Below are positions 4,029 through 45,713 of a stretch of 64,000 nt of DNA, one piece after another. The notes under the pieces are model-generated. The model was not told the DNA's origin. It saw nothing but the letters and a program-made list of their open reading frames with translations, and did not search any database. Position numbers and translations under genes: made by a program. The stretch comes from Corynebacterium lizhenjunii (GTDB lineage: Bacteria > Actinomycetota > Actinomycetes > Mycobacteriales > Mycobacteriaceae): the NCBI RefSeq assembly GCF_011038655.2, contig NZ_CP064954.1, positions 1,922,001 to 1,986,000 of the forward strand. The letters run 5' to 3'. Numbering within the stretch: position 1 is the stretch's first letter; every line of letters begins with the position of its first letter.

Positions 4029-6533
4029 TTGACCTCAATTAATCTCACCCGCGCAGAGGCGGCCGCCCGCTCTGGCATGCTGCGTGTGCACCACTACGAC
4101 GTCACCCTGGATCTGCGGGGAGAAGAAGAGTTTGTCTCCCGCACCGTGGTGGACTTCGAAGTAACCACACCCGGCAGTACCTTTATCGATTTGCGCGCCA
4201 CCCGGCTTAATTCGGTGCGCTTCAATGGCGCGCCGCTGCCGGTGGATTCCTATAACCCGGAATACGGCATTGCGCTCTCCGGCCTGCACGTTGGCCGCCA
4301 CCAGCTAGAGGTCGAGGCAGACATTGAGTACTCACGCACCGGTGAGGGCCTGCACCGCTTCACAGATCCCGCCGACGGCGAGGCCTATCTGTACACGCAA
4401 TTTGAGACCGCAGACGCCAAGCGCGTCTTCGCCTGCTTTGATCAGCCAGACCTCAAGGCCACCTACCAGCTGAGCTTTATCACCCCGCAGCACTGGACCG
4501 TGATCACCAACGCGGACACTACTCGCCAGGACAACACCTGGACCTCCCACGTGGACTACCCGCTGTCGACCTACCTGGTGGCGCTGTGCGCCGGGCCGTA
4601 TGTGGGCGTCCATGACACCTGGACGGGCCAGCTCCAAGCCCACCCAGAAGGCAAGCCCGCCCAAGAGCTGGAAGTCCCGCTAGGAATCTACTGCCGCAAG
4701 TCCATGCTGCACGCCCTGGATGCCCAGCGCCTATTTACCGAGACCAAACAGGGCTTTGACTGGTACCACCGCAACTTTGGCTTTGCCTACCCCTTTGGCA
4801 AGTATGACCAGATTTTTGTTCCAGAGTTCAACGCGGGCGCAATGGAAAACGCCGGCTGTGTGACGCTGCGCGACGAGTACGTCTTTACCTCCGAGGCCAC
4901 CCCGTACATGTACGAGCGCCGCGCAGATACAGTCCTCCACGAGCTGGCGCATATGTGGTTCGGAGACTTGGTCACCATGCAGTGGTGGGATGATCTGTGG
5001 CTCAATGAGTCCTTTGCCACCTGGTCGGCGGCAATTTCGCAAGCAGAAGAGACCGAGTATGACACCGCGTGGGTGACTTTTGCCAATGTGGAAAAAGCCT
5101 GGGCTTATGAGCAGGATCAGCTGCCTACCACGCACCCGATTTCCACGGATGCCTCCGATATAGAGACGGTGGAGCAGAATTTTGACGGCATCACCTACGC
5201 AAAGGGCGCCTCTACGTTGAAGCAGCTGCAGGCTTATGTGGGCCGCGAGGAGTTCCTGGCGGGGGTTCGCCGCCACTTCACCACCCATGCCTGGGGCAAC
5301 GCCACCTTCGATGATCTGCTAGGCCATTTGGAGCAGGCATCTGGCCGCGACTTGAGCTTCTGGGCGCAGCAATGGCTCAAAACCTCTGGGGTCAACACCC
5401 TGCGCCCGGTCTTTGAGGTCCACGATGGCGCCTACACGGCCTTCCGCGTGGAACAAGACGGCGAGGTACTGCGCACCCACCGCTTGGCCGTGGGCCTGTA
5501 CAACCTGGTGGATGGCCAGGTCCAGCGCGTACACCGGGTGGAGCTGGATGTCGATGGTGCGGCCACGGAGGTTGCCCAGCTCATCGGCACCCCGGCAGCG
5601 GATTTTGTGCTGGTTAATGATGATGACCTGACGTATGCACTAATTGAGTTCGACGCGGACTCGCTGGCATTTGCGCTGGGCAACATTGATAAGTTTGCAG
5701 ATCCGATGGCACGCACGCTGTGTTGGTCCGCGGCGTGGGAGATGACGCGGGCTGGCCAGATGCGCGCCCGCGACTTCGTGGCGCTGGTGGCGCGCGGTGC
5801 GGGCGCTGAAACCGAGACAGCAGTGCTGGAGCGCATTATTTCCCAGGCTATCGCGGCGCAGGATTCTTACGCCGATCCCCAGTGGGCTGCCCAGGACACA
5901 CAGCTTGCCGATGCCCTCTTGGCCGGCACCCAGGACCCCTCACCGCAGCGTGCCCTGATCTATGCCCAGGCGCTCACTCGCTTGCAGGCCACCGGCGCGA
6001 CGCGGGAGTTCCTGGAGTCCGTGTTGGAGACTTCCGATAACGCTGCGCTGCGGTGGAAGGCACTGGCCGCGTTGTGCGCTGCAGAGGCTGTGGACAACCC
6101 GGAGCAAGCCATTGCTGCCGAGCTGAAGCGTGATAATACCGCCACCGGCTACCAGGGTTCACTGCGCGCGCTGGCCGCCATTCCTACTGCGGAGAATAAG
6201 CGGGCCGTGTGGGAGGAGATTGTTGCGGGCAGCCTGGGCAACCGCGAGCTTGAGTCCAAGCTGGCGGGGCTTACTGCCCGTGGCAGCGAGGATCTGGTGC
6301 CTACTGCAGAGTTCTTCGAGGTCGCAGAAGGAATGTGGAAGTTGCAGTCTTCAGAGATCGCCCAGATGGCGGTGGGCGGGCTCTTCCCCTACCGCGACAT
6401 TAGCGAAGAGGGCATCGCCCGCGCCGATGAGTTCTTGGGCCGCGAACTGGCTGGAGGTCTGCGACGCATTATCCTCGAACAGCGTGACCGCGTGGCCCGC
6501 GCGCTGCGCAACCGGAAGGTTGATGCGGCCTAA
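4029..6533 (+). CDS. pepN: Aminopeptidase N (M1 metallopeptidase)
   Basis: Removes N-terminal amino acids from peptides in the cytoplasm. At 834 residues it is full length. It has GAMEN near residue 270, the zinc site HELAHMWFGD near residue 304 with the third ligand in WLNESFA, and a C-terminal helical ERAP1-like domain. The TTG start at 4029 is preceded by AAGGAG with good spacing. Convergent with the downstream GntR gene. A copy of the dispersed motif GCATCGGCAAGC (reverse orientation) lies inside it at 5903. Confidence 0.95.
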   Translation: MTSINLTRAEAAARSGMLRVHHYDVTLDLRGEEEFVSRTVVDFEVTTPGSTFIDLRATRLNSVRFNGAPLPVDSYNPEYGIALSGLHVGRHQLEVEADIEYSRTGEGLHRFTDPADGEAYLYTQFETADAKRVFACFDQPDLKATYQLSFITPQHWTVITNADTTRQDNTWTSHVDYPLSTYLVALCAGPYVGVHDTWTGQLQAHPEGKPAQELEVPLGIYCRKSMLHALDAQRLFTETKQGFDWYHRNFGFAYPFGKYDQIFVPEFNAGAMENAGCVTLRDEYVFTSEATPYMYERRADTVLHELAHMWFGDLVTMQWWDDLWLNESFATWSAAISQAEETEYDTAWVTFANVEKAWAYEQDQLPTTHPISTDASDIETVEQNFDGITYAKGASTLKQLQAYVGREEFLAGVRRHFTTHAWGNATFDDLLGHLEQASGRDLSFWAQQWLKTSGVNTLRPVFEVHDGAYTAFRVEQDGEVLRTHRLAVGLYNLVDGQVQRVHRVELDVDGAATEVAQLIGTPAADFVLVNDDDLTYALIEFDADSLAFALGNIDKFADPMARTLCWSAAWEMTRAGQMRARDFVALVARGAGAETETAVLERIISQAIAAQDSYADPQWAAQDTQLADALLAGTQDPSPQRALIYAQALTRLQATGATREFLESVLETSDNAALRWKALAALCAAEAVDNPEQAIAAELKRDNTATGYQGSLRALAAIPTAENKRAVWEEIVAGSLGNRELESKLAGLTARGSEDLVPTAEFFEVAEGMWKLQSSEIAQMAVGGLFPYRDISEEGIARADEFLGRELAGGLRRIILEQRDRVARALRNRKVDAA

Positions 6534-6557
6534 TCGCCGCCTGCCAGCCGGTGCGCC

Positions 6558-8170: not shown

Positions 8171-9409
8171 CTACCGGGATTCACGGAAACGCTTGGGGAC
8201 ATCTGGCGCGCCGAGGGTGAGCATCAGCCGATTAGCCCAGTTGAAGAAGGCGGCAGAGTTGATCAGATCAATTATGTCCAAGTCCTCGCACCCCACCGCG
8301 CGCAGCTTGGCCACGCAGCCGGAATTGAAGGCAAAGGGGGACTTGGTCAGCTCCCGGGAGGCGTCACGCAGCACGCCCCACAGCGGCGAACCCAGATCGG
8401 CATCCACTCCCTGATCTAACAGGCGATCGATTGCCGCAGCATCCCCGCCTTCTTCCTTTGAGCGTGCCTGGTGCACCGAGGCGCAGAACTCACAGCCGTT
8501 GAGCCTGGAGACTACCGTAGCGGCTAGTTCGCGCTCCGCCCGGCCCAAGCCACCGTCGGTGTTATAGAAGATGTCCAGGTCAGTGCGGGTGCGTGCCGCC
8601 AGGGCGTTAGGGTCGCGTGCCAGGAGGCGGAAATACTCGGAGCCAATACGCTCCGGGCGAATAAGCGCCGCCGTGTGCGCCGGGGTAAATTCCTCCTTGG
8701 GCAGCGGCGCCACCCAGGGACGCCACCCCAAGGAGTGGTTGACAAAGCCCTGTGGTGCCACGACGTCTGGCTCCAAGGTGCGTGGGCCGGGTTGCCACTG
8801 CGGCTGCGGCTCGTCCGGCGCGGGAGCCTGCTGGTGGGCGGACTGCGGGTCCTGGCCGCCCAGCACAGCCAGGCCGTGGATGACCCGCAGCTGGAAGGAG
8901 AGGAAGGAAATCAGCTGGGCCAGGCTGACCAGGTCATCATCGCTCCAGCCGGCTTGTTGCAGGTGGCCAATGGCTGCCGGGGTGGCGTCTTTGGGGTGGA
9001 AGGCCAGTAGGTGGGCGAAGTCGAAGGCGGCGGCCAGGCGGGGCCCCAGGGCAGATTCATCAGCCAGGTCCGCGAAGGTGGTGTACCCACCGCCGATGTG
9101 CGGGCCGTGGGCCTGCCCGCGCGCAATGGCGGTATCGACAGCCTCCACCAGGCTGGGCTCGGCTTCATCGGCGAGCAAGTCCGCGTAGAAGGTGCGGGCA
9201 TTGACCGCCTGGTAAATGCCAGCCACAAAGGCTGCGACTGCGTAGCGCTGCGCGTAGGTGAAATCACCCGGCTGCTCCGGTTCTAGCAGCGCGCGGAAGG
9301 ACTCCTGCGCGTTGTCCACCGCGTCCGGGCGGCGCCGCCGGAGGGCGGCGACCTGCGCAGATGCTCCGGAGAGTTGGTCGATGATGTCCGGTTGTTCAGT
9401 GTGCGCCAT
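8171..9409 (-). CDS. Two-domain alkylhydroperoxidase/CMD-family protein
   Basis: 412 residues made of two AhpD-like (carboxymuconolactone decarboxylase) halves. The C-terminal half has the full redox motif CEFCASVH (CxxCxxxH); the N-terminal half has a similar helical layout but no cysteine pair, so only one half is expected to be active. It resembles the Avi_7169/Avi_7170-type fusions that often accompany peptide/nickel-class ABC importers, and such an importer lies just upstream here. Likely a peroxide-reducing or thiol-disulfide enzyme connected with the imported compound; the true substrate is unknown. AAAGG precedes the ATG. Confidence 0.8.
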   Translation of the reverse strand: MAHTEQPDIIDQLSGASAQVAALRRRRPDAVDNAQESFRALLEPEQPGDFTYAQRYAVAAFVAGIYQAVNARTFYADLLADEAEPSLVEAVDTAIARGQAHGPHIGGGYTTFADLADESALGPRLAAAFDFAHLLAFHPKDATPAAIGHLQQAGWSDDDLVSLAQLISFLSFQLRVIHGLAVLGGQDPQSAHQQAPAPDEPQPQWQPGPRTLEPDVVAPQGFVNHSLGWRPWVAPLPKEEFTPAHTAALIRPERIGSEYFRLLARDPNALAARTRTDLDIFYNTDGGLGRAERELAATVVSRLNGCEFCASVHQARSKEEGGDAAAIDRLLDQGVDADLGSPLWGVLRDASRELTKSPFAFNSGCVAKLRAVGCEDLDIIDLINSAAFFNWANRLMLTLGAPDVPKRFRESR

Positions 9410-9518: not shown

Positions 9519-11156
9519 CTACAGCCCCATGTTGAGGTCTCCCGCACGATAGCGCGAGCCTGGAATAGCCTCGATGAGCTTGCGAGTTACCGCAGCCTGC
9601 GGTTGGGCAAAGACCTCGCCGGTGCGACCGGTCTCTACCTGCTTGCCATGGCTAAACACAGAGACCGTATCGGAAATGTGATTAACCACTGCCAGATCGT
9701 GGGAGATGAATATGTAGGTCAGGTCAAGTTCCTGCTGCAGCTGCTCCAGCAGGTCAAGGATCTGCGCTTGAACCGTCACGTCCAAGGCAGAGACGGCCTC
9801 ATCCAAGATAACCAGCTCGGGTTCGACAATCATGGCGCGTGCAATAGCCACGCGCTGGCGCTGGCCCCCGGAAAGCTCCTTCGGGCGGCGGTCAAAGAAA
9901 TCCGGGTTCAACGCCACGAGCCGCATAAACTCCCGCGCCCGCTCGGTGGCTTTAGCCTTAGATGCCCCCGTCAGGTTACGCAGGGGCGCGGCGATCGTCT
10001 GCCCAATCGACTGGCGGGGATCCAAAGAACCAAAGGGGTTCTGGTAGACCAGCTGGATACGCTTGCGGGCCTCGCGCTGCTCTGCACCGCGCAGGGCAGT
10101 AACCTCTACCCCACCCACGCGGATGCTTCCCGATGTCGGCTGATTGAACATGGCTATGGCCCTACCGGTGGTGGTCTTTCCGGAGCCAGACTCCCCCACC
10201 AGCGCGTGCGTGGTGCCCTTACCCACCATAAAGGAGACATCGTCTACCGCAGTAAAGTCCCCAAAGCGCTGGGTCAGGCCACTGACTTCCACCAGCGGCT
10301 GCCCCGTGCGCGCCGTACGCTGCTTCGCGGAAGCACCAACGGTGGGGACGGTGGCGAGGTTGAGGGAGGGGGCATCGGCAAGCAAACGGCGCGTATAAGC
10401 GTGGGCAGGCTCGGTGAGCACCGTGGCCGCCCACCCCTCCTCGCGGACGTGGCCGGACTCCATGACCACAATGCGGTCCGCGCGGTCACCAGCCACCGCC
10501 AGATCATGGGTAATGAACAAGATGCCCGTGCCGGTCTCCGCGCGCAACTCATCCAACAAGTCCAAGATGACCTTTTGCACGGTGACATCCAGCGCGGAGG
10601 TGGGCTCATCTGCGATGATGAGCTCCGGGCGCAAGGCCACCGCCGCAGCGATAAGCACGCGCTGCTTCATACCGCCGGAGAGCTCATGCGGGTACTGGGC
10701 ATAACGGCGCTGCGGATCATCAATGCCTACGCGCTCCAGCAACTCCAACGCGCGCTGGCGGCGGGACTGCGCGGTGCCCTCGCCGTGAATGGCCAGGCCC
10801 TCCTCCACGGAAGCCCCGATGGTTTTTAAGGGGTTGAGCGAGTTATTGGGATCCTGCGGAATCAGCCCAATGCGCTTGCCGCGCAGGCTACGCCATTGCT
10901 TCGGGCGCAGACCCGCAAGCTCGGTGCCGCAGAAGTGAATGCTTCCGGCATCAACATGGGCGTTGGACGGCAACAGGCCAATAGCCGCCATGGCGGAGGT
11001 AGTCTTGCCGGAACCGGACTCTCCCACAATCGCAGTCATCTGCCCCGGGTACACGTCCAGGTTCACCCCCTGGACCGCCGGGGTAGTCCCAGCCTTGGTG
11101 CGGTAGCTGACATTGAGATCGCGGATGGACAGCAGGGGCTGCTGTGAAGTAGTCAT
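9519..11156 (-). CDS. Peptide/nickel-class ABC transporter, fused double ATPase
   Basis: 545 residues containing two complete ABC ATPase domains in one chain (DppD-DppF fusion). Each has a Walker A (GESGSGKTTS and GESGSGKTTT), a signature (LSGGMKQR and LSGGQRQR) and a Walker B-Glu (ADEPTSALD and LDEAVSALD). It would power the two membrane subunits encoded just upstream on the same strand, 4 bp away. Together with the binding protein it makes a complete oligopeptide-type importer. The McbR-type site in front of the cluster suggests a sulfur-containing substrate. Confidence 0.93.
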   Translation of the reverse strand: MTTSQQPLLSIRDLNVSYRTKAGTTPAVQGVNLDVYPGQMTAIVGESGSGKTTSAMAAIGLLPSNAHVDAGSIHFCGTELAGLRPKQWRSLRGKRIGLIPQDPNNSLNPLKTIGASVEEGLAIHGEGTAQSRRQRALELLERVGIDDPQRRYAQYPHELSGGMKQRVLIAAAVALRPELIIADEPTSALDVTVQKVILDLLDELRAETGTGILFITHDLAVAGDRADRIVVMESGHVREEGWAATVLTEPAHAYTRRLLADAPSLNLATVPTVGASAKQRTARTGQPLVEVSGLTQRFGDFTAVDDVSFMVGKGTTHALVGESGSGKTTTGRAIAMFNQPTSGSIRVGGVEVTALRGAEQREARKRIQLVYQNPFGSLDPRQSIGQTIAAPLRNLTGASKAKATERAREFMRLVALNPDFFDRRPKELSGGQRQRVAIARAMIVEPELVILDEAVSALDVTVQAQILDLLEQLQQELDLTYIFISHDLAVVNHISDTVSVFSHGKQVETGRTGEVFAQPQAAVTRKLIEAIPGSRYRAGDLNMGL

Positions 11157-11973: not shown

Positions 11974-13016
11974 CAGCGCACCACTCCTTCCTGATCGGTT
12001 GCGGCCTGGGGTGTCGCGCTGTGGGCAGCTACAGCGGCGGGGGCATCGGCAGACGTGACAGACGTGACAGAGCTAGCGCCCGCGCGCGGGGTGCGCAGAC
12101 GCACGTCAACCACGGGGTAGATGAGGTCAACCACCAAGTTGATCACCACATAGGCAGTCGCGGCAATGAGGACAACGGCCAGCAGCACTGGGGTATCCCG
12201 GTTGGCCACGGCCTGGGCGGTCATCTGCCCCAAACCGGTGCGACCAAAAACAGTCTCCGTGACCACAGCGCCGCCCACGAGCTCACCAAAGAGCAGGCCC
12301 ACCATGGTCAAGGCAGGCAACAGCGAATTGCGCAGGATATTGCGCCAGAAGATCCAGCTTTCCGATGCCCCTCGCGCGCGCACCGCCTGCACAAACGGCC
12401 TGCCTTGGGTTTCCTCAATGGAGCGAATGAGCACCTGGATTAGCGGCGCCGCCATGGGCACCGCCAGAGTCAGCGTGGGCAGCACCAAACCGCGCCAGCC
12501 ATCGGCGTTAATCACCGGCGCCCAACCCAGCTGGAAAGAAAACAGCTGGATAAGCAGGATGCCGATCCAAAAGCCGGGCAGGGAGACCATGAAGGAGGGC
12601 AAACCACGGAAGAAGGTGGACAGCGCGCCCAAGCCCGGCAAGGTGGCCAGGAAGGCCACCACTAGCGCCACCACGGCGGCTAGCCCAATGGCGCTGGCTG
12701 CTAGGGCGAGCGTGTGCGGGAAGGCATCAGCAATAAGCGTGGCCACGGGGGCGCCGGTCTGGGTGGAGTTACCAAACTGGCCGGTCAAGAACCCCAGCAA
12801 AGAGGTAAAGTACTGCACCAGCAGCGGCTTGTCTACGCCCATTTCCTCCCGGATGGCGTCAATTTCAGCCTGGGATAAGCCCAGGGCGGGGTCGCCGAAG
12901 CGGGACTGGACGGCATCGGAAGGCAAGGCAGACAGCAGGAAGAAGGCAACGGTGTAGGTGATAAACAACACCAGCACCGCCTGGCCAATGCGGGCCAGAA
13001 TTTGATTGCGAGTCAT
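11973..13016 (-). CDS. ABC transporter permease (DppB type)
   Basis: 347 residues starting MTRNQILARIGQAVLVLF; the EAA loop reads VRARGASESWIFWRNILRN. An ATG 12 codons further upstream is inside the preceding gene; the start at 13016 forms a TAATG overlap with the binding-protein stop and has GGAGGAG upstream. The C-terminal 40 residues form a low-complexity Ala/Ser/Thr tail that contains the motif variant GCATCGGCAGAC at DNA level. First permease of the importer. Confidence 0.92.
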   Translation of the reverse strand: MTRNQILARIGQAVLVLFITYTVAFFLLSALPSDAVQSRFGDPALGLSQAEIDAIREEMGVDKPLLVQYFTSLLGFLTGQFGNSTQTGAPVATLIADAFPHTLALAASAIGLAAVVALVVAFLATLPGLGALSTFFRGLPSFMVSLPGFWIGILLIQLFSFQLGWAPVINADGWRGLVLPTLTLAVPMAAPLIQVLIRSIEETQGRPFVQAVRARGASESWIFWRNILRNSLLPALTMVGLLFGELVGGAVVTETVFGRTGLGQMTAQAVANRDTPVLLAVVLIAATAYVVINLVVDLIYPVVDVRLRTPRAGASSVTSVTSADAPAAVAAHSATPQAATDQEGVVR

Positions 13017-14844: not shown

Positions 14845-16791
14845 ATGACCACTGCCTCCATCGCCATCATCGGCATGGGCCCGCGCGGCATCTCCCTCAT
14901 CGAGCGCCTGGCCGCCCACCTGCGCGCCATTCCGGCCGATGCCCCCGCTATTAACCTGCACCTCATCGACGACGCCCAGCATGGCGCCGGGCGCATCTGG
15001 GAGACCACCCAGACCCACACCCTGTGCATGAACACTCTGGCCGGGGCCGTCACCCTGTTTACCGAGCCCGGATCCACCATGAGCGCGCCCGTGCTGGAAG
15101 GCCCCACCCAGTTCGAGTGGATCCAGTTGCTGCGTGGTGAGCGCGCGGGCATTGCCCCAGCCAAGGTGGCGCTGTTCGATTCCCACCCGGTAGCCCCAGA
15201 GATCACCCAGAACTTCGCCGCAGAAATTGCTGCCACCGTCCCGGAGTCCAACCCCTCCCGCGCGCTCTACGGCGCCTACCTGGAGTGGGCTTTTGCGGTG
15301 TCCGTGGCGCAGCTGCCTGCCAGCGTGCGCGTGACCTCCCACCACTGCCGCGCCGTGGCCATCCACCCCGGTAAGGACTCCGATTGCATTGAGCTTGCCG
15401 ATTCCTCCTCGGTCACCGCCCACGCCACCGTCCTTGCCGCAGGGTGGCAGGTCCCGGGCCTCACGGACTCCGAGCAGGTCCTGGCGCAGGCAGTGGAGCA
15501 GTCCGCAACGGCGCAAACCCCGCTGCACTGGGTGCGCCCGGACAATCCTGTAGAACAACCACTCTGCGCAGTCCCGGCCGGACAGAAGGTACTGGTGCGC
15601 GGTTTGGGCATGGGCTTCTTCGACGTCATGGCCCTGCTAAGTAGTGACCGCGGTGGGAGCTTCCACCCGGACCCGCAAGCGCGCTCTGGGTTGCGCTACG
15701 AGCCATCCGGGCGCGAGCCACACTTAGTGGTGGCCTCCGGGCGCGGCTACCCCTACATCCCTAAGTCGGAGTACCACGCATTGCCACCGGCGGCGAACCT
15801 CTCACGTCTGCGCGCGGCCATAGCCGCGCTGCCTGCTGGCGGAGAGGTGGACTTTAGCGCCGACCTTGCCCCTGCGTTGGTGCGGGATGCCTATGCGCAG
15901 TACTACCGCACCCAGGCACGGGTTGCTGGGGAGATGCTGCGCGTGGATCTGGAGGAGATTGAACGGCGTATTGACGCCGCACAGCTGCACCATTCCTCCT
16001 TTGCTGGCCTGGGTGAGCAGCTGCGGGATGCACTCGATGGAGTAAGCGCCGAGCCCTTGGATTTGGGCGCGTGGATGGATCCGCTGGCCACTTTTGCCGG
16101 GGGCAGCGCTGCGCAGCTCACGGAGTTTATTGCCCAAGGCTTGGCCCGTGACATTGACGCTGCGGTAGCGGCGGCGGACTCTGCACTCAAGGCCGCGTTG
16201 TGGGAGATCTCGGCGGCCCGCAAGCCGGTCTCTATTGCCGGGTCCGAAGGGCGGATGACCTGGGAGTCGCGTAACGGCGCCTACCGGGAGTTTATGGCCT
16301 TCGGCCAGATGGTGGGCTCCGGGCCCCCACTGTTTCGCACCCGCCAGTTGCTGGCCTTGGTTGACGCCGGGCTGGTCAGCTTCCTAGGGGCACACCCGCA
16401 GCTGCGGGCACACCCGGAAGACGGCGAGTTTGCTATGCACAGCGCGGTCGGAGAAGTGCGCAGCCCGTGGCTGATCGATGCCTGGATGCACTCGCCGGAT
16501 GTGCGTCAGCCCGCTGATCCTCTCGCGGTTTCTCTGGCCCAGCGCGTGCGCCCGTTCGTGGACCACGGCCACCCCACCGGCTCCCCGGAAACCACCTGGG
16601 AGCGCCTGGTCGTCCACCCGGATGGCAGCGTGGATACGCGGCTGCACATTGTGGGTATTCCCACCTACGCGCAGTGGCCGGATACCACCATCTCCCCCAT
16701 GCCGGGCACGGATCCGCTCATGCTACAAGAGACGGACCGCACGGCGGCATCGCTGTTGCGCTGCGCGGGCATCCCGACAGCTGCGGATTAG
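14845..16791 (+). CDS. FAD/NAD(P)-binding protein (COG4529-like)
   Basis: About 648 residues. The N-terminus reads SIAIIGMGPRGISLIERL (nucleotide-binding GxGxxG-type loop) and a second strand-loop is VLVRGLGMGFFDVMALL near residue 255. The middle region is helical, and the C-terminal part holds RQLLALVDAGLVSFLG. It resembles FAD-NAD(P)-binding proteins (PF13454) of unknown reaction, some of which are N-hydroxylating monooxygenase-like. GAAGGA lies 9 bp before the ATG at 14845; an ATG at 14836 and longer upstream extensions are less likely. Divergent from the ABC importer and sharing its McbR-type site, so it may modify the imported sulfur compound. Confidence 0.8.
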   Translation: MTTASIAIIGMGPRGISLIERLAAHLRAIPADAPAINLHLIDDAQHGAGRIWETTQTHTLCMNTLAGAVTLFTEPGSTMSAPVLEGPTQFEWIQLLRGERAGIAPAKVALFDSHPVAPEITQNFAAEIAATVPESNPSRALYGAYLEWAFAVSVAQLPASVRVTSHHCRAVAIHPGKDSDCIELADSSSVTAHATVLAAGWQVPGLTDSEQVLAQAVEQSATAQTPLHWVRPDNPVEQPLCAVPAGQKVLVRGLGMGFFDVMALLSSDRGGSFHPDPQARSGLRYEPSGREPHLVVASGRGYPYIPKSEYHALPPAANLSRLRAAIAALPAGGEVDFSADLAPALVRDAYAQYYRTQARVAGEMLRVDLEEIERRIDAAQLHHSSFAGLGEQLRDALDGVSAEPLDLGAWMDPLATFAGGSAAQLTEFIAQGLARDIDAAVAAADSALKAALWEISAARKPVSIAGSEGRMTWESRNGAYREFMAFGQMVGSGPPLFRTRQLLALVDAGLVSFLGAHPQLRAHPEDGEFAMHSAVGEVRSPWLIDAWMHSPDVRQPADPLAVSLAQRVRPFVDHGHPTGSPETTWERLVVHPDGSVDTRLHIVGIPTYAQWPDTTISPMPGTDPLMLQETDRTAASLLRCAGIPTAAD

Positions 16792-31834: not shown

Positions 31835-31846
31835 GCTTGCCGATGC
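31835..31846 (-). repeat. Dispersed motif GCATCGGCAAGC, non-coding copy
   Basis: Reverse-orientation exact copy in the gap between the PH-domain gene start and the birA stop. Preceded on its own strand by a GGAAGGGGGT run, similar to the G-run in front of other copies. Confidence 0.7.
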
Positions 31847-31907
31847 ACCCCCTTCCTCACTCATCGCTTCCCTCACCGGGGATTGCGGTGCTGGTGTTGG
31901 GGCGAGG

Positions 31908-34296: not shown

Positions 34297-35292
34297 GTGC
34301 GTAAATCAACGGCCCCCGCCCTGGCTTTAGTGGCCCCGGCGCTAACGGTCCTCGCGGTAGTCATCGGCTATCCCATCATTCGCGCCGTCATGCTGTCCTT
34401 CCAGGGCAATCGCCACCTGGACCCGGCAACCGGCGTGTTCGTCGAAGGCAAATTCGCCGGCCTGGATAACTACCTGTATTGGATTACTAACCGGTGCATG
34501 GCGGCATCGGGAGAGGTAAGCGCCTGCCCACCCGGGGTCATTGCCACGGACTTTTGGCCAGCAGTGCGCATCACCTTGTTCTTCACCGTGGTGACGGTGG
34601 CCCTTGAAACCATCCTGGGCATCATCATGGCGCTGATCATGAATGGTAACTACCGCGGCCGCGGCCTGGTGCGCGCCGCCGTGCTCATCCCCTGGGCCAT
34701 CCCCACTGCGGTAACAGCCAAGCTGTGGCAATTCATGTTCGCCCCGCAGGGCATAGTCAACTCCCTGCTGGGCACCCACATTTCCTGGACCACGGACCCC
34801 ACTTTTGCCCGGCTGGCCGTCATCATCGCCGATGTGTGGAAGACCGCCCCCTTTATGGCCCTGCTCATCCTCGCGGGACTGCAAATGATCCCCAAGGAAG
34901 TCTACGAAGCCGCCCGCGTCGACGGCGCCACCCGCTGGCAAACCTTCACCCGCATTACCCTGCCGCTAGTGCGCCCGGCACTGATGGTGGCTGTGCTCTT
35001 CCGCACCCTCGATGCCCTGCGCATGTATGACCTGCCGGTGATCATGATTTCCGGCTCCTCCAACTCCCCCACCGCCACCATCTCCCAATTGGTGGTGGAG
35101 GACATGCGCCAAGGCAACTTCAATTCTGCCTCTGCCTTGTCCACCCTCATTTTCCTCCTCATCTTCGCAGTGGCCTTCATCCTGGTGCGCTTCCTAGGTG
35201 CCGACATCACCGGAACCGCGGAAGCAAAGCGGGCCCGGAGGGAAGCGGGGGCATCGGCAAGCAAGGCACAACCTGCTGGACAGAGGAGCTAA
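34297..35292 (+). CDS. ABC sugar permease (MalF/SugA/TusF-like)
   Basis: 331 residues, six transmembrane helices, EAA loop YEAARVDGATRWQTFTRITL near residue 205. Resembles SugA-type trehalose permeases. GTG start with AAAGGCAGG upstream. The C-terminal tail is short, charged and Ala-rich and contains the dispersed DNA motif (35261-35272), read here as GASASK. Stop is followed 2 bp later by the next ATG, showing coupling. Confidence 0.9.
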   Translation: MRKSTAPALALVAPALTVLAVVIGYPIIRAVMLSFQGNRHLDPATGVFVEGKFAGLDNYLYWITNRCMAASGEVSACPPGVIATDFWPAVRITLFFTVVTVALETILGIIMALIMNGNYRGRGLVRAAVLIPWAIPTAVTAKLWQFMFAPQGIVNSLLGTHISWTTDPTFARLAVIIADVWKTAPFMALLILAGLQMIPKEVYEAARVDGATRWQTFTRITLPLVRPALMVAVLFRTLDALRMYDLPVIMISGSSNSPTATISQLVVEDMRQGNFNSASALSTLIFLLIFAVAFILVRFLGADITGTAEAKRARREAGASASKAQPAGQRS

Positions 35293-36308: not shown

Positions 36309-37828
36309 GCACATCGACGCCCAAGCGGTCGCAGACTCCCAAGTGGTACGCCACCGCGGTGTTTTATCAGGCCCTGGTGCACGCTTTTCAGGACTCCAAC
36401 GCCGACGGTATTGGGGATCTGCGCGGGCTGATCTCCCGGCTAGACTACCTGGCGTGGCTGGGCATCGACTGTCTATGGCTGCCGCCGTTTTATCTCTCCC
36501 CCATGCGCGATGATGGCTACGATATTGCGGACTACTACGCCGTGGATCCGCGCTATGGAACCATGGCGGACATGGAGGAGCTCATCGCCGCCGCCCATGC
36601 GCGCGGGATTCGGGTGGTCACTGACCTGGCGCTGAACCACACTTCCGACCAGCACGCGTGGTTTCAGGCCTCGCGCCGCGACCCGTCGGGCCCCTATGGG
36701 GATTACTACGTATGGGGCGATGATCCGCAGCGCTATCCAGAGATTCGGGTCATTTTCAATGACACGGAGGAGTCCAATTGGGCCTGGGATCCGGTGCGCC
36801 AGCAGTACTACTTCCACCGCTTCTATTCCCACCAGCCGGATTTGAACTATGACTGCCCGTCGGTGCACCGAGAGGTCTTCAAGATCATCCGTTTTTGGAT
36901 GCGCAAGGGTATAGACGGTTTCCGTTTGGATGCCATCCCGTACCTTTATGAGCGCGATGGCGTGGGCGGAGAGTCCCTCCCGGAGACCCTGCACTTCATC
37001 GAGCAGGTGCGTGCCCTGGTGGATGCTGAGTTTCCCGATGCCCTGATTATCGCCGAGGCCAATCAACCTCCCGCGCAGACTATGGAGTTCTTTGGCGCGG
37101 GCAACCGGGTGCACATGGTGTTCAACTTCCCAGTCATGCCAGCTTTGTTTGCGGCGCTGGCTACCGGCAGCGCGGCCGGGGTTTACGACGTGTTGGATAA
37201 GCTGCCGGAGCTTCCCGCGGGCTGCCAGTGGGGGACGTTTCTGCGCAACCACGACGAGCTCACGCTAGAGATGGTCCCGCCCGAGGTACGCGAGGTAATG
37301 TACGCGGCGTACATGCCAGACCCGCGGGCCAAGGCCAACGACGGCATTGCCCGGCGCTTAGCCCCGCTGGTGGGTGGGGACTGTCGGAAGCTGGAGCTAA
37401 TGTTCTCCCTGCTCTTTAGCCTTCCCGGCGCGCCGTTTATCTACTACGGGGATGAGATTGGCATGGGAGAGGACATCACGCTACCCGACCGCCATGCGGT
37501 GCGCACCCCGATGCAGTGGGAGGAAGGCCCCGGCGCGGGGTTTAGTACTGCTGCCCCGCAGTGGCCGATTGTGGGTGGGACGTCGGTGGCCGCACAGCGC
37601 GCCGAGGAAGACTCGCTGCTGCACTTTGTGCGCGGACTGATTGCGCAGCGCAAGGCCCACCCCGAGCTAGCGCTTGCACCGTATGAGCCGGTGGAAACTG
37701 GAGTGGATGCCGTCTTTGCGTTCCAGCGCGGCAGCTTGTTGTGCGTACACAACTTTGGTGCGGAAGCGGTAGATTTGGGCCCAGTAGAGTTGGGCCCGTT
37801 TGGTTGGGCATGGATTCCTGTGGAGTAA
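36305..37828 (+). CDS. GH13 trehalose synthase-like enzyme (TreS type)
   Basis: 507 residues. Resembles maltose/trehalose-interconverting TreS: WYATAVFYQALVHAFQDSNA, then DYYVWGDDPQRYPEIRVIFN and SNWAWDPVRQQYYFHRFYSH. Catalytic residues of GH13 are visible: GFRLDAIP (nucleophile), IIAEANQ (acid/base) and RNHDELTLE. Shorter than typical TreS (near 600) because the C-terminal part is reduced, so it could also be an alpha-glucosidase. GTG at 36305 with AAAGGA upstream. Context with a trehalose-type importer supports trehalose or maltose breakdown. Confidence 0.82.
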   Translation: MSTSTPKRSQTPKWYATAVFYQALVHAFQDSNADGIGDLRGLISRLDYLAWLGIDCLWLPPFYLSPMRDDGYDIADYYAVDPRYGTMADMEELIAAAHARGIRVVTDLALNHTSDQHAWFQASRRDPSGPYGDYYVWGDDPQRYPEIRVIFNDTEESNWAWDPVRQQYYFHRFYSHQPDLNYDCPSVHREVFKIIRFWMRKGIDGFRLDAIPYLYERDGVGGESLPETLHFIEQVRALVDAEFPDALIIAEANQPPAQTMEFFGAGNRVHMVFNFPVMPALFAALATGSAAGVYDVLDKLPELPAGCQWGTFLRNHDELTLEMVPPEVREVMYAAYMPDPRAKANDGIARRLAPLVGGDCRKLELMFSLLFSLPGAPFIYYGDEIGMGEDITLPDRHAVRTPMQWEEGPGAGFSTAAPQWPIVGGTSVAAQRAEEDSLLHFVRGLIAQRKAHPELALAPYEPVETGVDAVFAFQRGSLLCVHNFGAEAVDLGPVELGPFGWAWIPVE

Positions 37829-39483: not shown

Positions 39484-41076
39484 ATGACCATTTCCTCATC
39501 TTTGCCGGAGACCACCGCGGATAAAATCGCGGAGCTCAAGCGGCGCCGTGCCGAGGCCTACGCCCCCCTGGGGCCGCAGGCACACGAGAAAGTCCACGCC
39601 AAGGGCCGCCTAACCGCCCGCGAGCGCTTGGATTATCTGCTAGACGAAGGCTCCTTTGTGGAGACAGACATGCTGGCTATCCACCGCACCACCGACTTTG
39701 GGATGGACGCCAAGCACCCCGTAACCGATGGCATTGTCACCGGCTGGGGCACTATCGACGGCCGCGAGGTCTGCATCTTTAGCCAGGATGGCACCGTCTT
39801 CGGCGGTGCTTTGGGCGAGGTCTACGGCGAGAAGATGGTCAAGATCCAAGAACTCGCCGTCACCACCGGTCGCCCCCTCATCGGCCTCTACGAAGGCGCC
39901 GGCGCGCGCATCCAAGACGGCGCGGTCTCCCTGGACTGGATTGCCGCCACCTTCTACCAGAACATCAAGGCCTCCGGCGTGGTCCCGCAGATTTCCGTCA
40001 TCATGGGCGCATGTGCTGGCGGTAACGCGTACTCCCCCGCCCTGACGGACTTTGTGGTCATGGTGGAAGAAAAGTCCAAGATGTTCGTCACCGGCCCAGA
40101 CGTGATTAAGACCGTTACCGGTGAGGCCATCACCCAGGAAGAACTCGGTGGCGCCAGTGTCCACATGAAGTCTGCGGGCAACACCCACTACACCGCGCAC
40201 TCCGATGAGGACGCCCTGGACTGGGTCCACGATCTGCTCAGCTACCTGCCCGCAAACAACCGCGAGCACGCCCCCTTTGAGGAGCACGAGCCTGCCACTG
40301 AGCTTTCCGATGCCGACTTGGCCCTAGATTCGCTCATTCCCGACTCTCCCACCCAGCCCTACGACGTCCGCGAGGTTATTGAGGCCCTGGCAGACGATGG
40401 AGAGTACCTGGAAATCCAGGCCGATTATGCCGATAACGTGGTCATTGCCTACGGGCGTATTGAGGGCCAAACGGTGGGCTTTGTGGCCAACCAGCCCATG
40501 GTCTTTGCAGGCTGCTTGGACATCAACTCCTCCGAAAAGGCCGCGCGCTTTATCCGCACCTGCGATAGCTTCAATATCCCGATTGTGTTGCTTGTCGATG
40601 TCCCCGGCTTCCTACCCGGCGCTGACCAGGAGCACAACGGTATTTTGCGCCGCGGTGCCAAGTTGCTCTACGCCTACGGCGAGGCCACCGTTCCCAAGAT
40701 TACAGTTACCATGCGCAAGGCTTATGGCGGCGCGTACTGCGTGATGGGGTCCAAAGGCTTGGGCGCTGACGTCAATCTGGCGTGGCCTACTGCCCAGATT
40801 GCAGTCATGGGTGCCGCTGGCGCGGTGGGCTTTATCTACCGCAAGGAGCTCAAGGCCGCAGAGGCCGCCGGTGAGGACGTCCAAGCCCTGGCCAAGGCTT
40901 TCGAGCGCGAATATGAGGACCACATGCTCAACCCCTACAAGGCCGCCGAGCGTGGGCTTATTGATGCCGTCATTCTTCCCTCGGAGACCCGCACTGCCAT
41001 CGCTCAGAATCTGCGTCTCTACGCCGATAAGACTGTGGCGCGCCCGGGCCGCAAGCACGGCAACATCCCGCTCTAA
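39484..41076 (+). CDS. accD1: Acyl-CoA carboxylase beta (carboxyltransferase) subunit, active type
   Basis: 530 residues. Transfers CO2 from carboxybiotin on AccBC to acetyl- or propionyl-CoA. Two crotonase-type halves; the N-terminal half holds [16 protein letters not shown] (first oxyanion motif, near residue 176) and the C-terminal half [19 protein letters not shown] (second). [20 protein letters not shown] is also intact. Matches DtsR/AccD-type proteins of corynebacteria. ATG 39484; a TTG three codons before is less likely. Followed 87 bp later by its own accE. Confidence 0.93.
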
Positions 41077-41997: not shown

Positions 41998-43338
41998 ATG
42001 ACTGATCTGAAGACCACTGCGGGCAAGATCGAGGATCTGCACTCGAAGCTCGCGCAGGCCCGCGCCCCGCAGGGGACGCAGACCGCGGCGCGGCAACGAG
42101 TACTGAGCTTGTTGGATGCGGACTCGTTTGTGGAAACGGATGCGCTGGCGCGTCACCGTTCGAAGGACTTCGGGCGCGAGCATGACCGCCCGTACACAGA
42201 CGGCGTGATCACTGGTTACGGCACCGTGGATGGCCGCAAAGTCTGCGTATATTCACTGGATGCCACCATTTTTGATGGCACTCTGGGTGAGGTCACAGGC
42301 GAGAAGATAGTCAAGGTCTATGACTTGGCCATCAAGACGGGTGTGCCGCTGGTGGGCATCGTCGAAGCTGGTGCGCCGCGCGCGCAGGAGGGCATTGTTT
42401 CCCTGGCGTTCCTTGGCCGCATCATGCAGCGCGCCACGCAGGCGTCGGGTTTGGTGCCCCAGATTACGGTGTCTTTTGGCACGGTGGAGTTCCTGCCGCA
42501 GGCCTTGGGCGACCTAACCATTGTGGCCCAGGCCGATGGTGCGCCCCACGCCGCTGAGTCTGCCGATGCCCAGTCTGCCGATACCCCCGGCACCCTCACC
42601 GCCGCAGACCCCATCGCGTGCGCGAAGCAGGTGCTGGGTTTGCTGCCGTCGAATAACCGCGCCGAAGCCCCACGTGCTGCGGCCCCGATTATGGCCGGTG
42701 CCATTGCCGATAACATCCGCGAGGAAGACGGCGTGCTCAACAGCCTGGTAGACGGCGGCGAATGCGACGTGGAACAGATCATCACCACGGTGGCGGAGTC
42801 GACGCTGCGCTTGAGCCCCGGCACCGCGCTGGGCCGGATCGAGGGCCGCTCCGTGGGGCTCATTAGTGTTCAAGAGAAACTAGACCCGGCCACTGCCCGG
42901 TTTATCCGCCTGTGCGATGCCTTCAATATCCCGCTGGTGACCTTTGTGGACGCCCCGGAGCTACCCCACTCCCCCGCACAGCTGGCGCAGGTAGCCCACG
43001 CCTATGCGGCGGCTACCGTGGGCAAGCTGACCGTGGTGGTGCGTCGTGCGCTCGGCAGCGGCTACGTGGTGGCGGGCTCAAAAGATTTGGGCGCAGACCT
43101 GGCCTATGCCTGGCCTACTGCCGAAATCGCGGTGGCGGATGCAACGGCGTTGGCGCAGACACTGGGCGTGGACGACGCCTCGGAGTTCCTCACCCCCTAC
43201 CAGGCGGCAGAGCGCGGCTTGGTCGATGCCGTCATTGAGCCTGCCACCACCCGCGGCTACCTCATTGAGGGCCTGCGTCTGCTGGAGCGCAAGTACGTCC
43301 CCACCCCGCCGAAGAAGCTCAGCAACATCATCCTGTAG
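41998..43338 (+). CDS. accD2: Acyl-CoA carboxylase beta-like subunit, degenerate
   Basis: 446 residues, about 85 shorter than AccD1 and aligned with it over most of its length (TDGVITGYGTVDGRKVCVYS; LGADLAYAWPTAEIAV; EFLTPYQAAERGLVDAVI). The first oxyanion motif is replaced: where AccD1 has [12 protein letters not shown], this protein has SFGTVEFLPQAL, and the following [16 protein letters not shown] block is absent, replaced by an Ala/Asp-rich linker. In the second motif GGAY is changed to GSGY. It may be a structural, non-catalytic partner in a mixed AccD complex. Followed directly by a second accE. Confidence 0.85.
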   Translation: MTDLKTTAGKIEDLHSKLAQARAPQGTQTAARQRVLSLLDADSFVETDALARHRSKDFGREHDRPYTDGVITGYGTVDGRKVCVYSLDATIFDGTLGEVTGEKIVKVYDLAIKTGVPLVGIVEAGAPRAQEGIVSLAFLGRIMQRATQASGLVPQITVSFGTVEFLPQALGDLTIVAQADGAPHAAESADAQSADTPGTLTAADPIACAKQVLGLLPSNNRAEAPRAAAPIMAGAIADNIREEDGVLNSLVDGGECDVEQIITTVAESTLRLSPGTALGRIEGRSVGLISVQEKLDPATARFIRLCDAFNIPLVTFVDAPELPHSPAQLAQVAHAYAAATVGKLTVVVRRALGSGYVVAGSKDLGADLAYAWPTAEIAVADATALAQTLGVDDASEFLTPYQAAERGLVDAVIEPATTRGYLIEGLRLLERKYVPTPPKKLSNIIL

Positions 43339-43548: not shown

Positions 43549-43560
43549 GACAGGTCTCGC

Positions 43561-44154
43561 ATGCGCCTTGTGCTTGCCTCAGCCTCACCGTCTCGCGCGG
43601 GCATTCTGCGCGCCGCGGGCGTGGAACCGGTGCTGCATCCGGCGGATGTGGACGAAAGGGGTATCGAAAAGCTCCTGGCCGGACAGCCTGCGGCAGAGGT
43701 GGTGGCTGCGCTCGCGGAGGCGAAAGCCCAGGCCGTGGCCGGGAACTACCCGCAGGATGTAGTGATTGGCGCAGATTCCATGCTGCTGCTTGGCGGTAAG
43801 CTGCAGGGCAAACCACACACCCCGGAGCGCACCATCGAGCGTTGGTGTGAGCAAGCCGGCAAAGAAGCGGTGCTGCTGACCGGGCATTGCATTATAGGGC
43901 CTCATGGGCAGCGGTGGGAAGAGACCTCGGCAACCACGGTGCGCTTTGCGGCGGCATCGGCAAGCGACATTGCTGTCTACGCCGCCACGGGCGAACCGCT
44001 GGAGTGCGCGGGCGCGTTTACCCTGGAAGCCCTGGGCGGGTGGTTTATTGACTCCATCGAGGGAGACCCCTCCTCCGTCATCGGGCTGTCCCTGCCTGTG
44101 GTGCGCCGGGCGCTGTATTCCTTCGGCTTGGACGTCAGCAGCTTCTGGGCCTAG
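43561..44154 (+). CDS. maf: Maf-family nucleotide pyrophosphatase
   Basis: 197 residues: MRLVLASASPSRAGILRAAG (SxSPxR phosphate loop), VIGADSMLLL, GKPHTPERTI, then IEGDPSSVIGLSLP near the end. Hydrolyses non-canonical or modified nucleoside triphosphates (house-cleaning). In the accD2-accE-maf run, likely one transcript. Contains the dispersed motif at 43954-43965, read here as AASASD. A maf gene at this place next to accD genes is typical of corynebacteria. Confidence 0.92.
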   Translation: MRLVLASASPSRAGILRAAGVEPVLHPADVDERGIEKLLAGQPAAEVVAALAEAKAQAVAGNYPQDVVIGADSMLLLGGKLQGKPHTPERTIERWCEQAGKEAVLLTGHCIIGPHGQRWEETSATTVRFAAASASDIAVYAATGEPLECAGAFTLEALGGWFIDSIEGDPSSVIGLSLPVVRRALYSFGLDVSSFWA

Positions 44155-44172
44155 CAGGTAAACTCTGGCGGC

Positions 44173-44595
44173 ATGGAAATGAAAGACATGCTTGCCCCCG
44201 CCCCCATTTTGCTGCCTGAGGACCCTGCGGGTGCTGCCAGCAGCGATGAGCTTGCCGATGCCGTGGCCGCCCCCAGCTCTCCTGCCGCCTGGGCCCGCCT
44301 GGCCGAAGCCGAATTAGCGCGGGTGCGTGCCGATGAGGCCCTGCCCACCGCCTATATCACCGCCTATGCCTACGCACGCACCGGCTATCACCGCAGTTTA
44401 GACCGGCTGCGCGCCAACGGCTGGAAGGGGTGGGGCCCGGTGCCCTTTAGCCACCCCGCCAACCAGGGAGTGCTGCGTTCCTGGGCGGCGCTGGCACATG
44501 CCGCGCAGGCCATTGGAGAGCAGGAGGAATACGACCGCCTGCGCCAGATGCTCTCTGACGCAGACCCCGAATCCGTGGCCGCACTTCTGGACTAG
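44173..44595 (+). CDS. DUF3151 family protein
   Basis: 140 residues. MLAPAPILLPEDP at the N-terminus and the helical YARTGYHRSLDRLRANGWKG with PVPFSHPANQGVLRSWAALA are characteristic of the actinobacterial DUF3151 family (function unknown). Probably cotranscribed with maf, 18 bp upstream. The N-terminal linker holds the dispersed motif (44250-44261) as DELADA. Convergent with the Cj0069-type gene; the gap contains short GCCGAG/CAGCTGAGC repeats. Confidence 0.85.
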   Translation: MEMKDMLAPAPILLPEDPAGAASSDELADAVAAPSSPAAWARLAEAELARVRADEALPTAYITAYAYARTGYHRSLDRLRANGWKGWGPVPFSHPANQGVLRSWAALAHAAQAIGEQEEYDRLRQMLSDADPESVAALLD

Positions 44596-44657
44596 CGCCC
44601 TAAGCCGGGCTGAGCCGAGGGAGCCGAGCCCAGCTGAGCTGGTTGACTGGGCCGAAC

Positions 44658-45713
44658 TTAGCGGGCCTCGACGCGGCGGATGGCCTCTGCCGCGACCTTC
44701 TCCTGGATGCCCATGTCCAGCTCGGAGGTAAAGCCCACGCACGAGCAGTTAATCTCGCCCAGGACGTAGGTGTCCTCACCGTTGTCGCCGTCTGCCAGCA
44801 TGAAGTCAGCGGTCCAGATCAGCGGCACGTTGTCGGTATCGCCCAACTTTTCGGCGATCACCGGACGAGCAGCTGCGAACATCTCCAGCAGCTCCGGCCA
44901 GGCTTCCGGCTTGTCATAGGTGTACTTCGCACCGGAGAACAAGGTGGCGGAGAAGTTATCCCCGCCCGCAGCAGGCTTCTTGTGGACGATAAACACCGGC
45001 TCGTCGCCCACGAGCAGGATGCGGATTTCGCCCTCGACGATGCGCGGCATGAAGCGCATATCCACCAGCATGCCGTTATCACCGATGATGTACTGGTCGC
45101 AGAAGTCCATGAACTCACCCAGGGTGTAATCATGGGTCTGGTTATCCACGGCCTCGGTGCACTTCAGCGCGGTATCAAGGGGCAGGGCGGTGCCGGGGGT
45201 TACGGAGCTTGCCAGGGCGGCATCGGCAAGCCGTACGCGCCAAATGCCCTCGCCCGTGGAGCCACGGTTTTGCTTCAGCACGCGCTCACCATAAGACAAG
45301 GTGGTGGGGAAGGTGTTGTGGAAGTCCTCGACCTCATAGTAGGCGGCGGTGTCTTCCGGAACCAGGTCCGTGTCATTGAGCTTGACCAGGGCGTCCTTGG
45401 CGCCATAGGCCATCATGTCAGCCGGAGTGGACATGCCCACCAGACCAGAATCGGCCAGCTTGGTCAACAGTTCAAAGTAGCCCTTCTCCCCGCCCGGAAT
45501 GTTGCCGGGGTTAACACGGGAGATGTAGGCGTCGAAGTTCTCCGAGACCTTGGTGAAGATGTCTGCGGCGTTATCCGGATGGTAGTAGATGACCTCGGAA
45601 TGCCAGCCAGCATCCTTGATGGCGTTGACAATCGGCATGGTGTCCTTACGGTGGCCGTCAGCCCCCTTGTCGGAACCGCCCTCAACTTCGAAGACAACAA
45701 TTGCTTTGTGCAT
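44658..45713 (-). CDS. Cj0069-family protein (ATP-grasp-like)
   Basis: 351 residues beginning MHKAIVVFEVEGGSDKGADG, with KLNDTDLVPED, LKQNRGSTGEGIWRVRLAD (a glycine-rich loop like the ATP-grasp flap), MRFMPRIVEGEIRILLVGDE, and a C-terminal EINCSCVGFTSELDMG. I recognise this as the Cj0069 family, predicted ATP-grasp ligases of unknown substrate. GAAAGG before the ATG at 45713; upstream extensions look non-coding. Divergent from the rhodanese gene. Confidence 0.8.
   Translation of the reverse strand: MHKAIVVFEVEGGSDKGADGHRKDTMPIVNAIKDAGWHSEVIYYHPDNAADIFTKVSENFDAYISRVNPGNIPGGEKGYFELLTKLADSGLVGMSTPADMMAYGAKDALVKLNDTDLVPEDTAAYYEVEDFHNTFPTTLSYGERVLKQNRGSTGEGIWRVRLADAALASSVTPGTALPLDTALKCTEAVDNQTHDYTLGEFMDFCDQYIIGDNGMLVDMRFMPRIVEGEIRILLVGDEPVFIVHKKPAAGGDNFSATLFSGAKYTYDKPEAWPELLEMFAAARPVIAEKLGDTDNVPLIWTADFMLADGDNGEDTYVLGEINCSCVGFTSELDMGIQEKVAAEAIRRVEAR

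Follow-up and report, generated by a model that had tools for sequence, protein, structure and literature searches.

The closest described counterparts of the element reported here are the DNA uptake sequences (DUS) of the Neisseriaceae, which are read by the minor pilin ComP, and the uptake signal sequences (USS) of the Pasteurellaceae. Both are enriched between genes and frequently lie in inverted pairs, and USS are flanked by AT-tracts. A passage of a 2025 paper names these as the only families known with such motifs and gives the USS receptor, ComN/PpdA, as predicted (PMC12616744); a section of PMC3630211 describes eight DUS dialects, each conserved within species, which form a known parallel to the dialects below. 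The present element was found in Corynebacterium lizhenjunii, in a stretch of 64,000 nt (the window, positions 1922001-1986000 of the single 2,607,882-base chromosome), where the original prediction had noted ten exact copies of a 12-mer and suggested an uptake, recombination or chromosome-organisation sequence. That suggestion was supported, and uptake appears to be the best fit of the three options. From the genomic sequences compared, we consider it probable that the motif serves as an uptake signal in natural transformation and is convergent with the DUS of Neisseria and the USS of Haemophilus.

All ten exact copies were present in the window, five per strand, and nine of them extend to GGCATCGGCAAGC as had been described. 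The expectation had been put at well under one copy per window; dinucleotide shuffling gave 0.02, and none of 100 shuffles reached 10. Over the whole chromosome the 12-mer occurs 402 times (193 forward and 209 reverse), and the reversed-pattern control gave 0. Among 60 other genomes of the genus, G006 held 209 copies and the other 59 held 0-12; when 201 genomes of the family were counted, C. lizhenjunii and G006 among them, the remaining 199 held 0-13. Further counts were made on 464 kb of the C. lizhenjunii chromosome, window included, and on 400 kb of G006. The C. lizhenjunii sample contained 75 exact 12-mers against 0.39 expected under a fourth-order Markov model; a count near expectation, which the original prediction had named as grounds for giving it up, was thus not seen. 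A site matrix of 22 columns, scored at >14 bits and controlled on reversed sequence, detected 296 sites against 6 in C. lizhenjunii and 261 against 3 in G006, raising the number in the window from 10 to 48. The density is ~one per 1.6 kb, by extrapolation ~1,600 per chromosome, which is similar to that of USS, and the spacing of sites along the chromosome is near random. One-mismatch variants were also over-represented in both samples; in C. lizhenjunii none came near the consensus in number (at most 12 copies, against 73 of the 13-mer), and in G006 the variant GGCATCGACAAGC was common (18 against 30).

The full signal is bipartite and 43 nt long, consisting of a 30-nt upstream tract, which is G-rich and poor in C and T, followed by the 13-nt core GGCATCGGCAAGC. 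A run of G before several copies had been noticed in the original prediction; the general 30-nt tract, the dialects and the genus-wide spread lay beyond its view. The tract boundary is sharp, ~30 nt upstream of the core, and in the logo the base 3' of the core is T in 57% of the exact C. lizhenjunii copies. In the 43 intergenic copies of the C. lizhenjunii sample, G made up 45, 48 and 55% of the three 10-nt blocks before the core, compared with 32-34% further upstream and 31-37% downstream. The tract was much alike in sense (65) and antisense (187) copies, and in G006. Inside the tract G shows a 3-nt rhythm, strongest in antisense coding copies, which fits a preference for C in the third position of the gene's codons and is at least partly codon-driven; a triplet-reading protein is not needed to explain the rhythm.

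Sites were denser in coding DNA than between genes (0.68 against 0.47 per kb in C. lizhenjunii, 0.72 against 0.33 in G006). This contradicts the earlier suggestion that copies favour linkers or gene tails, as do the positions within genes, which cover all deciles, with 3 of 252 coding copies of the C. lizhenjunii sample located ≤30 nt from a stop. In the same sample, 186 of the 252 coding copies were antisense in a single frame, presumably the frame best tolerated by proteins, and 36 of 47 LADA tetrapeptides were spelled exactly CTTGCCGATGCC. It had been argued that protein constraint does not account for the motif, and this was borne out by synonymous-codon shuffling (60 rounds, keeping every protein and each gene's codons), which gave a mean of 1.62 coding 12-mers (maximum 5) against 51 observed in C. 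lizhenjunii and 1.93 (maximum 7) against 21 in G006. Enrichment was not limited to LADA-coding positions either, as, of the 296 copies, 65 were sense in other frames and 43 lay between genes. Amino-acid identity to relatives was 0.546 in the core and 0.558 in the flanks (209 pairs from 91 sites). The signal is accounted for neither by codon usage or protein sequence nor by a mobile repeat inserting itself.

The 12-mer is one dialect of a tag that is present in most Corynebacterium species. In a census of 242 species, with one genome each, so that uniformity is seen only inside each genome, the A dialect (CATCGRCAAGC) was found in 14 species at 232-508 copies, and the one-letter variant CGTCGRYAAGC (G dialect) in 170 other species at 106-1052 copies (median 482.5); the reversed control of the G-pattern count was mostly <20 per genome. 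One species, G272, holds both (307 A-pattern and 121 G-pattern copies). The remaining 58 species had <100 copies of the G pattern, 56 of them <40, and three of the 58 (G279, G362 and G385) had 56-71 copies of the A pattern. A motif-blind scan of named loci, which are 8-23 kb each and hence hold few copies each, surfaced 10-mers of CGTCGGCAAGC, CGTCGACAAGC and CGTCGATAAGC. In these loci the A form was found in C. macginleyi and in Corynebacterium sp. KPL1814, MSK130 and J010B-136, and mainly the G form in C. minutissimum, C. aurimucosum, C. tuberculostearicum, C. pseudodiphtheriticum, C. silvaticum, C. senegalense and others; one copy was seen in C. amycolatum and none in C. dentalis and C. suicordis. 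G006 and MSK130 share 93.8% identity over 17 kb of summed alignments. The G-rich tract was the same in both dialects where sampled, G minus C being +7.1 to +7.5 of 30 upstream and +0.5 to +1.7 downstream (C. lizhenjunii, +7.3 and +0.7; 105 pooled G-dialect sites, +7.5 and +1.7).

Ten motif-poor species were sampled for another dialect at 40 kb each, two of them at 240 kb. Little sign of one was found in G348. In G033, which was scored as motif-poor, GGCGTCGRA was weakly over-represented and preceded by G-rich sequence, GGCGTCGAA occurring in 25 bins against 6.2; this word is possibly a remnant, or a looser or distant dialect. When CRTCGRYAAGC was counted in 199 other genomes of the order, most lay between one third and twice the reversed control, and 1.08 Mb of named non-Corynebacterium loci gave 13 copies against 23 in the control. 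Some genomes of other genera reached two to three times the reversed control, the highest being G098 (128 against 41), and this may be codon-related.

A midpoint-rooted tree of two proteins of the Tad pilus locus from 40 chosen genomes (19 motif-bearing, 21 motif-poor) placed ten motif-poor species in one deep clade and the other eleven on the opposite side. Four motif-poor species, G345, G014, G348 and G400, are nested among motif-bearing species and are therefore read as losses; for the other motif-poor species on the bearers' side of the tree, absence may be original. Seven A-dialect species lie in one clade along with the motif-poor G345 and G014 and with G005, a G-dialect species that is the sister of the A-dialect G006. 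This pair was compared over ~88.7 kb of aligned DNA (79.7% identity), which includes 22 A-dialect sites of G006. In G005 one of these is gapped, 11 are no longer motif and ten are otherwise intact, and all ten intact sites carry G for A. At the dialect position of the 21 ungapped sites G005 has G in 17, A in three and C in one, compared with a background of 118 of 582 (20%) CATCG words outside the motif that carry G. In the reverse view, from G005 to G006, 13 of 13 otherwise intact sites, among 19, were switched, against 69 of 270 outside the motif; these sites are partly the same as the forward ones, possibly with duplicates. The concerted one-letter switch points to a sequence-specific reader whose preference changed, and such a reader appears to be needed for it, no other way having been seen.

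Copies appear to arise by substitution in place, as is the case for DUS and USS; besides the switch at ten of ten sites, 156 of 209 alignments of C. lizhenjunii sites to relatives were ungapped in the motif region. At homologous positions, matches of at least 12 of 13 bases were found in 37 of 97 ungapped pairs with named G-dialect species (13 more pairs were gapped), in 5 of 29 with named A-dialect species, in 7 of 53 with G006 and in 0 of 37 with motif-poor species, against 1 of 381 in the control; few loci contribute these pairs, which are not independent. Several G-dialect species have the copies at 5903 (in pepN) and at 10371 in the homologous position, with one letter changed. The 10371 site is common to relatives in either dialect, and in G006-like species the pepN copy is displaced by 12 nt.

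Sites on the leading and lagging strands numbered 145 and 139 in C. lizhenjunii and 122 and 135 in G006, leaving out one stretch per genome (L019 and L048) with an unclear replichore. The orientation is balanced on both replichores, which excludes polar guides, in agreement with the earlier argument from lack of strand bias; occurrence in both orientations without replication-strand bias (193/209 chromosome-wide) is also a feature of DUS and USS. Neighbouring sites <150 bp apart numbered 39 against 28.4 expected in C. lizhenjunii and 18 against 24.9 in G006, with 12 and 10 inverted pairs, respectively. A prophage with portal, terminase and major head and tail proteins was recognised in C. lizhenjunii (L020, C1:1430001-1450000; GC 58.2% against 61.4% for the whole sample). 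This 20-kb stretch contains 1 site where 13.3 are expected (P ~2e-5, uncorrected for its being the lowest of 21 stretches), a scarcity that is expected if the tags mark self DNA.

The Corynebacterium signal resembles DUS in its short non-palindromic core, its hundreds to thousands of copies, its placement in both orientations inside and between genes, and its one-letter dialects between species. It differs from DUS in its unrelated sequence, the further 30-nt G-rich tract, the actinobacterial host with its Tad/Flp-type locus and the lack of enrichment between genes and of an inverted-pair excess. With USS it shares a core with a compositionally biased flank on one side, and divergent specificities within a family; the sequence is again unrelated, and the flank is G-rich and upstream. 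Of the genomic features of DUS and USS that were tested, all were found except inverted pairs, some on thin data. In the proposed mechanism, a surface receptor would bind DNA bearing the 43-nt signal and pass it to ComEA/ComEC; the putative receptor would most likely belong to the minor pilins of the Tad/Flp pilus or cooperate with the pilus. Tagged fragments would recombine back more often, and point substitutions in place would thereby spread the tags (molecular drive), which would stay rare in phage DNA and would follow the receptor when its preference changes, giving one-letter dialects. We infer that an uptake receptor acts as the reader and that the copies were produced through uptake-based drive. 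It also seems reasonably likely that Corynebacterium has an independent third system of self-DNA recognition, and the first uptake-signal system outside Proteobacteria, with a bipartite signal (the 30-nt G-rich tract and an 11-13-nt core) and a Tad/Flp-linked receptor; its preference would have been flipped by one letter between sister species, with hundreds of sites rewritten each time, raising a barrier between species that share a habitat.

The C. lizhenjunii genome carries a Tad-type locus encoding an Ssd/CpaE homologue, TadA, two T2SSF-domain proteins (TadB and TadC by order), a pilin-like DUF4244 protein whose Flp_Fap match is below its cut-off, TadE, an Rv3654c-type TadE-like protein and a neighbouring DECH helicase, and it also has a comEA-comEC-holA locus (holA assigned by eye). 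According to a passage in PMC6370729, another actinobacterium, Micrococcus luteus, has comEA and comEC and needs Flp pili for transformation. The Tad and Com genes, the scarcity in the prophage and the M. luteus parallel favour an uptake receptor, though the machinery occurs just as widely in motif-poor species. A ComEC domain was found in 241 of 242 genomes, ComEA in 68 of 68 chosen genomes (66 over the cut-off) and the Tad ATPase in 69 of 69 (68 over the cut-off), and other Tad components were likewise near-universal across 40 loci; as a result, comparing the presence of competence genes with that of the motif gave no contrast. The helicase with its cold-shock neighbour was not seen in the examined stretch of G283 and G426, and the cold-shock neighbour was also missing in G407.

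Some minor observations concern these genes. Column 59 of TadE has Gln in six of seven A-dialect species and Thr in one, and neither residue in 11 G-dialect species; His is found in G005, and Gln also in the motif-poor G400. The column is a lead to the receptor, not evidence for one. Among motif-poor species, G343 matches TadB very weakly and carries an in-frame TGA in ComEC, a possible case in which competence was lost and then the tags; G196 has a TGA in ComEA, and the others look intact. In C. lizhenjunii a D12-class adenine DNA methyltransferase lies between rpsT and holA-comEC-comEA, together with a DUF6996/6997/7226 protein that may be its restriction partner (L217:1595-3638).

Several observations weigh against an uptake function. 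Much of either dialect is lacking in 58 of the 242 species, and the motif-poor species examined still match ComEA (39/39) and the Tad ATPase (39/39), so that the presence of the machinery does not follow that of the motif. None of nine Tad-locus components was confined to motif-bearing species, and no receptor was found among them. Residues separating the dialects in ten Tad/Com proteins (G055 left out) amounted to eight columns, which are dominated by phylogeny and may reflect chance and phylogeny. The C. lizhenjunii ComEC is short (419 aa) and scored 58.6 bits with the full-length ComEC/Rec2 model against a cut-off of 190, and in the motif-bearing G001, G265 and G417 ComEC appeared as two separate matches, perhaps because the gene is broken by frameshift or interruption. 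The prophage scarcity concerns one stretch, noticed as an outlier among 21. Density is lower between genes than in coding DNA, in which DUS and USS differ, and the samples of C. lizhenjunii and G006 held no excess of inverted pairs, a feature common in DUS and USS, if not defining. Gaps at motif sites were slightly in excess (53 of 209 against 41.0 in controls). Among the titles and abstracts listed in searches of open-licence literature, none reports an uptake experiment in Corynebacterium or such a signal, subscription papers and preprints being outside that scope. An exact-motif text search gave no paper on such a tag among the titles of the matches listed, and the Corynebacterium motif pairs in the relevant part of PMC5217627 are CRISPR-derived only.

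The main rival to an uptake signal, which we regard as unlikely, is a Chi-like recombination signal. In this reading the motif on resected DNA would be recognised by AdnAB, the helicase-nuclease that resects DNA ends in actinobacteria, or by a partner, with a switch from degradation to RecA loading at the G-rich tract 5' of the core. The Chi sites of RecBCD/AddAB are likewise over-represented, non-palindromic, G-rich and mostly coding. RecB-type nuclease domains (PDDEXK_1) were found in 41 of 41 genomes (3-6 matches each; AddAB was not searched separately), and in C. lizhenjunii two neighbouring matches lie in large open frames of 1093 and 1087 aa, whose size and adjacency suggest AdnA and AdnB. 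AdnAB-like proteins were present regardless of the motif, in 20 motif-bearing and 21 motif-poor genomes alike, and RecC (PF04257), the family of the RecBCD Chi reader, was found in 0 of the 41, the E. coli control being matched. A G at every third base 5' of the core could suit the triplet-binding RecA, but the period is at least partly codon-driven and strongest in antisense copies. Known Chi sites are 5-8 nt long, far shorter than a 13-nt core with a 30-nt tract, and Chi of E. coli is biased toward the leading strand, a bias that is absent here (145/139). To our knowledge, Chi does not typically disappear from many species or change dialect between close ones, as was observed for the signal in Corynebacterium. 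A passage of a 2026 paper calls it unclear how AdnAB systems manage Chi-like recognition (PMC13309787), and a Chi-like role of the motif would bear on this open question of AdnAB regulation.

A signal for chromosome organisation or replication, such as a nucleoid-protein site, an FtsK guide or a DnaA-titration site, is improbable. The motif is spread over the whole chromosome, and, read backwards, the G-dialect form (GCTTATCGACG) agrees at 7 of 9 bases with the DnaA box of C. ulcerans, which a passage of PMC3164646 quotes as TTATC(C/A)A(C/A)A. The A-dialect form is unlike this box, however, 58 of 242 species manage without the signal, and the samples showed neither an orientation bias nor a clear gradient from origin to terminus. 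Architecture imparting sequences and FtsK orienting polar sequences (KOPS) are similarly G-rich and dispersed, but they are polar along the replichores, the published actinobacterial architecture imparting sequences being polar G-rich octamers in the same passage (PMC3164646), and the Corynebacterium signal is not polar.

A dispersed mobile repeat inserting copies of itself, resembling repetitive extragenic palindromes (REP) or miniature inverted-repeat transposable elements (MITE), is very unlikely. It would suit the high copy number and the slight gap excess at motif sites, but insertions opposite empty homologous sites were not found in the alignments, most of which are ungapped; homologous sites differ mainly by substitutions, and the logo has neither inverted ends nor conservation beyond the tract. 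A by-product of codon usage and recurrent peptides such as LADA, to which the favoured antisense frame and the uniform LADA spelling might point, can be practically dismissed, being ruled out by the synonymous shuffle (1.62 against 51) and contradicted by the 65 sense copies and by the 43 intergenic ones with the same G-rich tract.

If the motif is indeed an uptake signal, Corynebacterium, a large genus with commensals and pathogens of humans and animals, would provide a third independent case and show a wider evolution of such signals. Hidden natural transformation would be predicted in Corynebacterium, and the single-letter dialects of sister species would provide a natural experiment for finding the receptor and testing the drive model.

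Nine of the ten positions originally given for the exact copies in the window were accurate; the copy placed at 35261 starts at 35251. On the minus strand, the core GGCATCGGCAAGC with its 30-nt upstream tract lies at 5903-5915 (element 5903..5945), antisense in pepN (aminopeptidase N, 4029-6533, +), at 19941-19953 (19941..19983), antisense in a biotin-carboxylase-like gene (19300-21039, +), at 27150-27162 (27150..27192), intergenic, and at 44250-44262 (44250..44292), in a gene at 44173-44595 (+), the last two with a G-rich tract. The fifth minus-strand copy, a 12-mer with T replacing the first core G (31835-31847, element 31835..31877), also has a G-rich tract and is intergenic. As had been stated, two exact copies are thus outside genes by simple gene calls, those at 27150 and 31835. 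On the plus strand, cores with a G-rich tract lie at 10371-10383 (element 10341..10383), antisense in a gene at 9519-11156 (-), at 26292-26304 (26262..26304), in a gene at 26067-26573 (-), at 35250-35262 (35220..35262), sense and close to the 3' end of a gene at 34330-35292 (+), and at 45219-45231 (45189..45231), in a gene at 44658-45713 (-). The core at 43953-43965 with its tract (43923..43965) is sense in a gene at 43561-44154 (+).

Near-variants had also been reported, and these exist; the CATCGACAAGC cores lie at 31056-31068 and 54655-54667, a few bases off the 31053 and 54658 originally given. Near-variant cores on the plus strand are GGCATCGGCAGAC at 12042..12054 (22.1 bits), a further GGCATCGGCAGAC with the full G-rich tract at 28946..28958 (26.7 bits, intergenic), GCCATCGGCAAGC at 25645..25657 (22.0 bits), GGCATCGACAAGC at 31056..31068 (18.0 bits) and 54655..54667 (20.0 bits), and a core at 22218..22230 (22.3 bits). 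Those on the minus strand are GTCATCGGCAAGC at 56982..56994 (24.6 bits) and cores at 15393..15405 (21.3 bits), 21603..21615 (21.5 bits), 40302..40314 (22.0 bits), 42558..42570 (20.4 bits), 42573..42585 (21.4 bits), 47474..47486 (22.7 bits), 56886..56898 (22.6 bits), 62386..62398 (20.5 bits) and 62425..62437 (19.8 bits).

Degenerate cores were located on the plus strand at 3297..3309 (18.7 bits, with a near-match at the homologous place in relatives), 9131..9143 (15.3 bits), 12912..12924 (20.0 bits), 18521..18533 (17.7 bits), 32175..32187 (17.3 bits), 43660..43672 (15.1 bits), 50124..50136 (16.3 bits), 58724..58736 (18.3 bits) and 60123..60135 (16.9 bits). Degenerate minus-strand cores lie at 12357..12369 (19.7 bits), 14931..14943 (18.2 bits), 17046..17058 (16.4 bits), 20397..20409 (14.3 bits), 21255..21267 (14.1 bits), 25816..25828 (19.2 bits), 37030..37042 (19.1 bits), 40590..40602 (18.5 bits), 47513..47525 (18.0 bits), 47540..47552 (17.7 bits), 48641..48653 (15.3 bits), 57798..57810 (14.1 bits) and 57819..57831 (15.3 bits).

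The window also contains three biotin-dependent carboxylase genes within 33 kb (19300-21039, 47085-48857 and 48984-52382), one of which encodes pyruvate carboxylase. Other short repeats were seen in G006, where CTTCGCGCTCAC occurs 11 times in the 20-kb stretch L037 and a word around AGTCTATCAGGGGTAA in about ten copies in the 400 kb.

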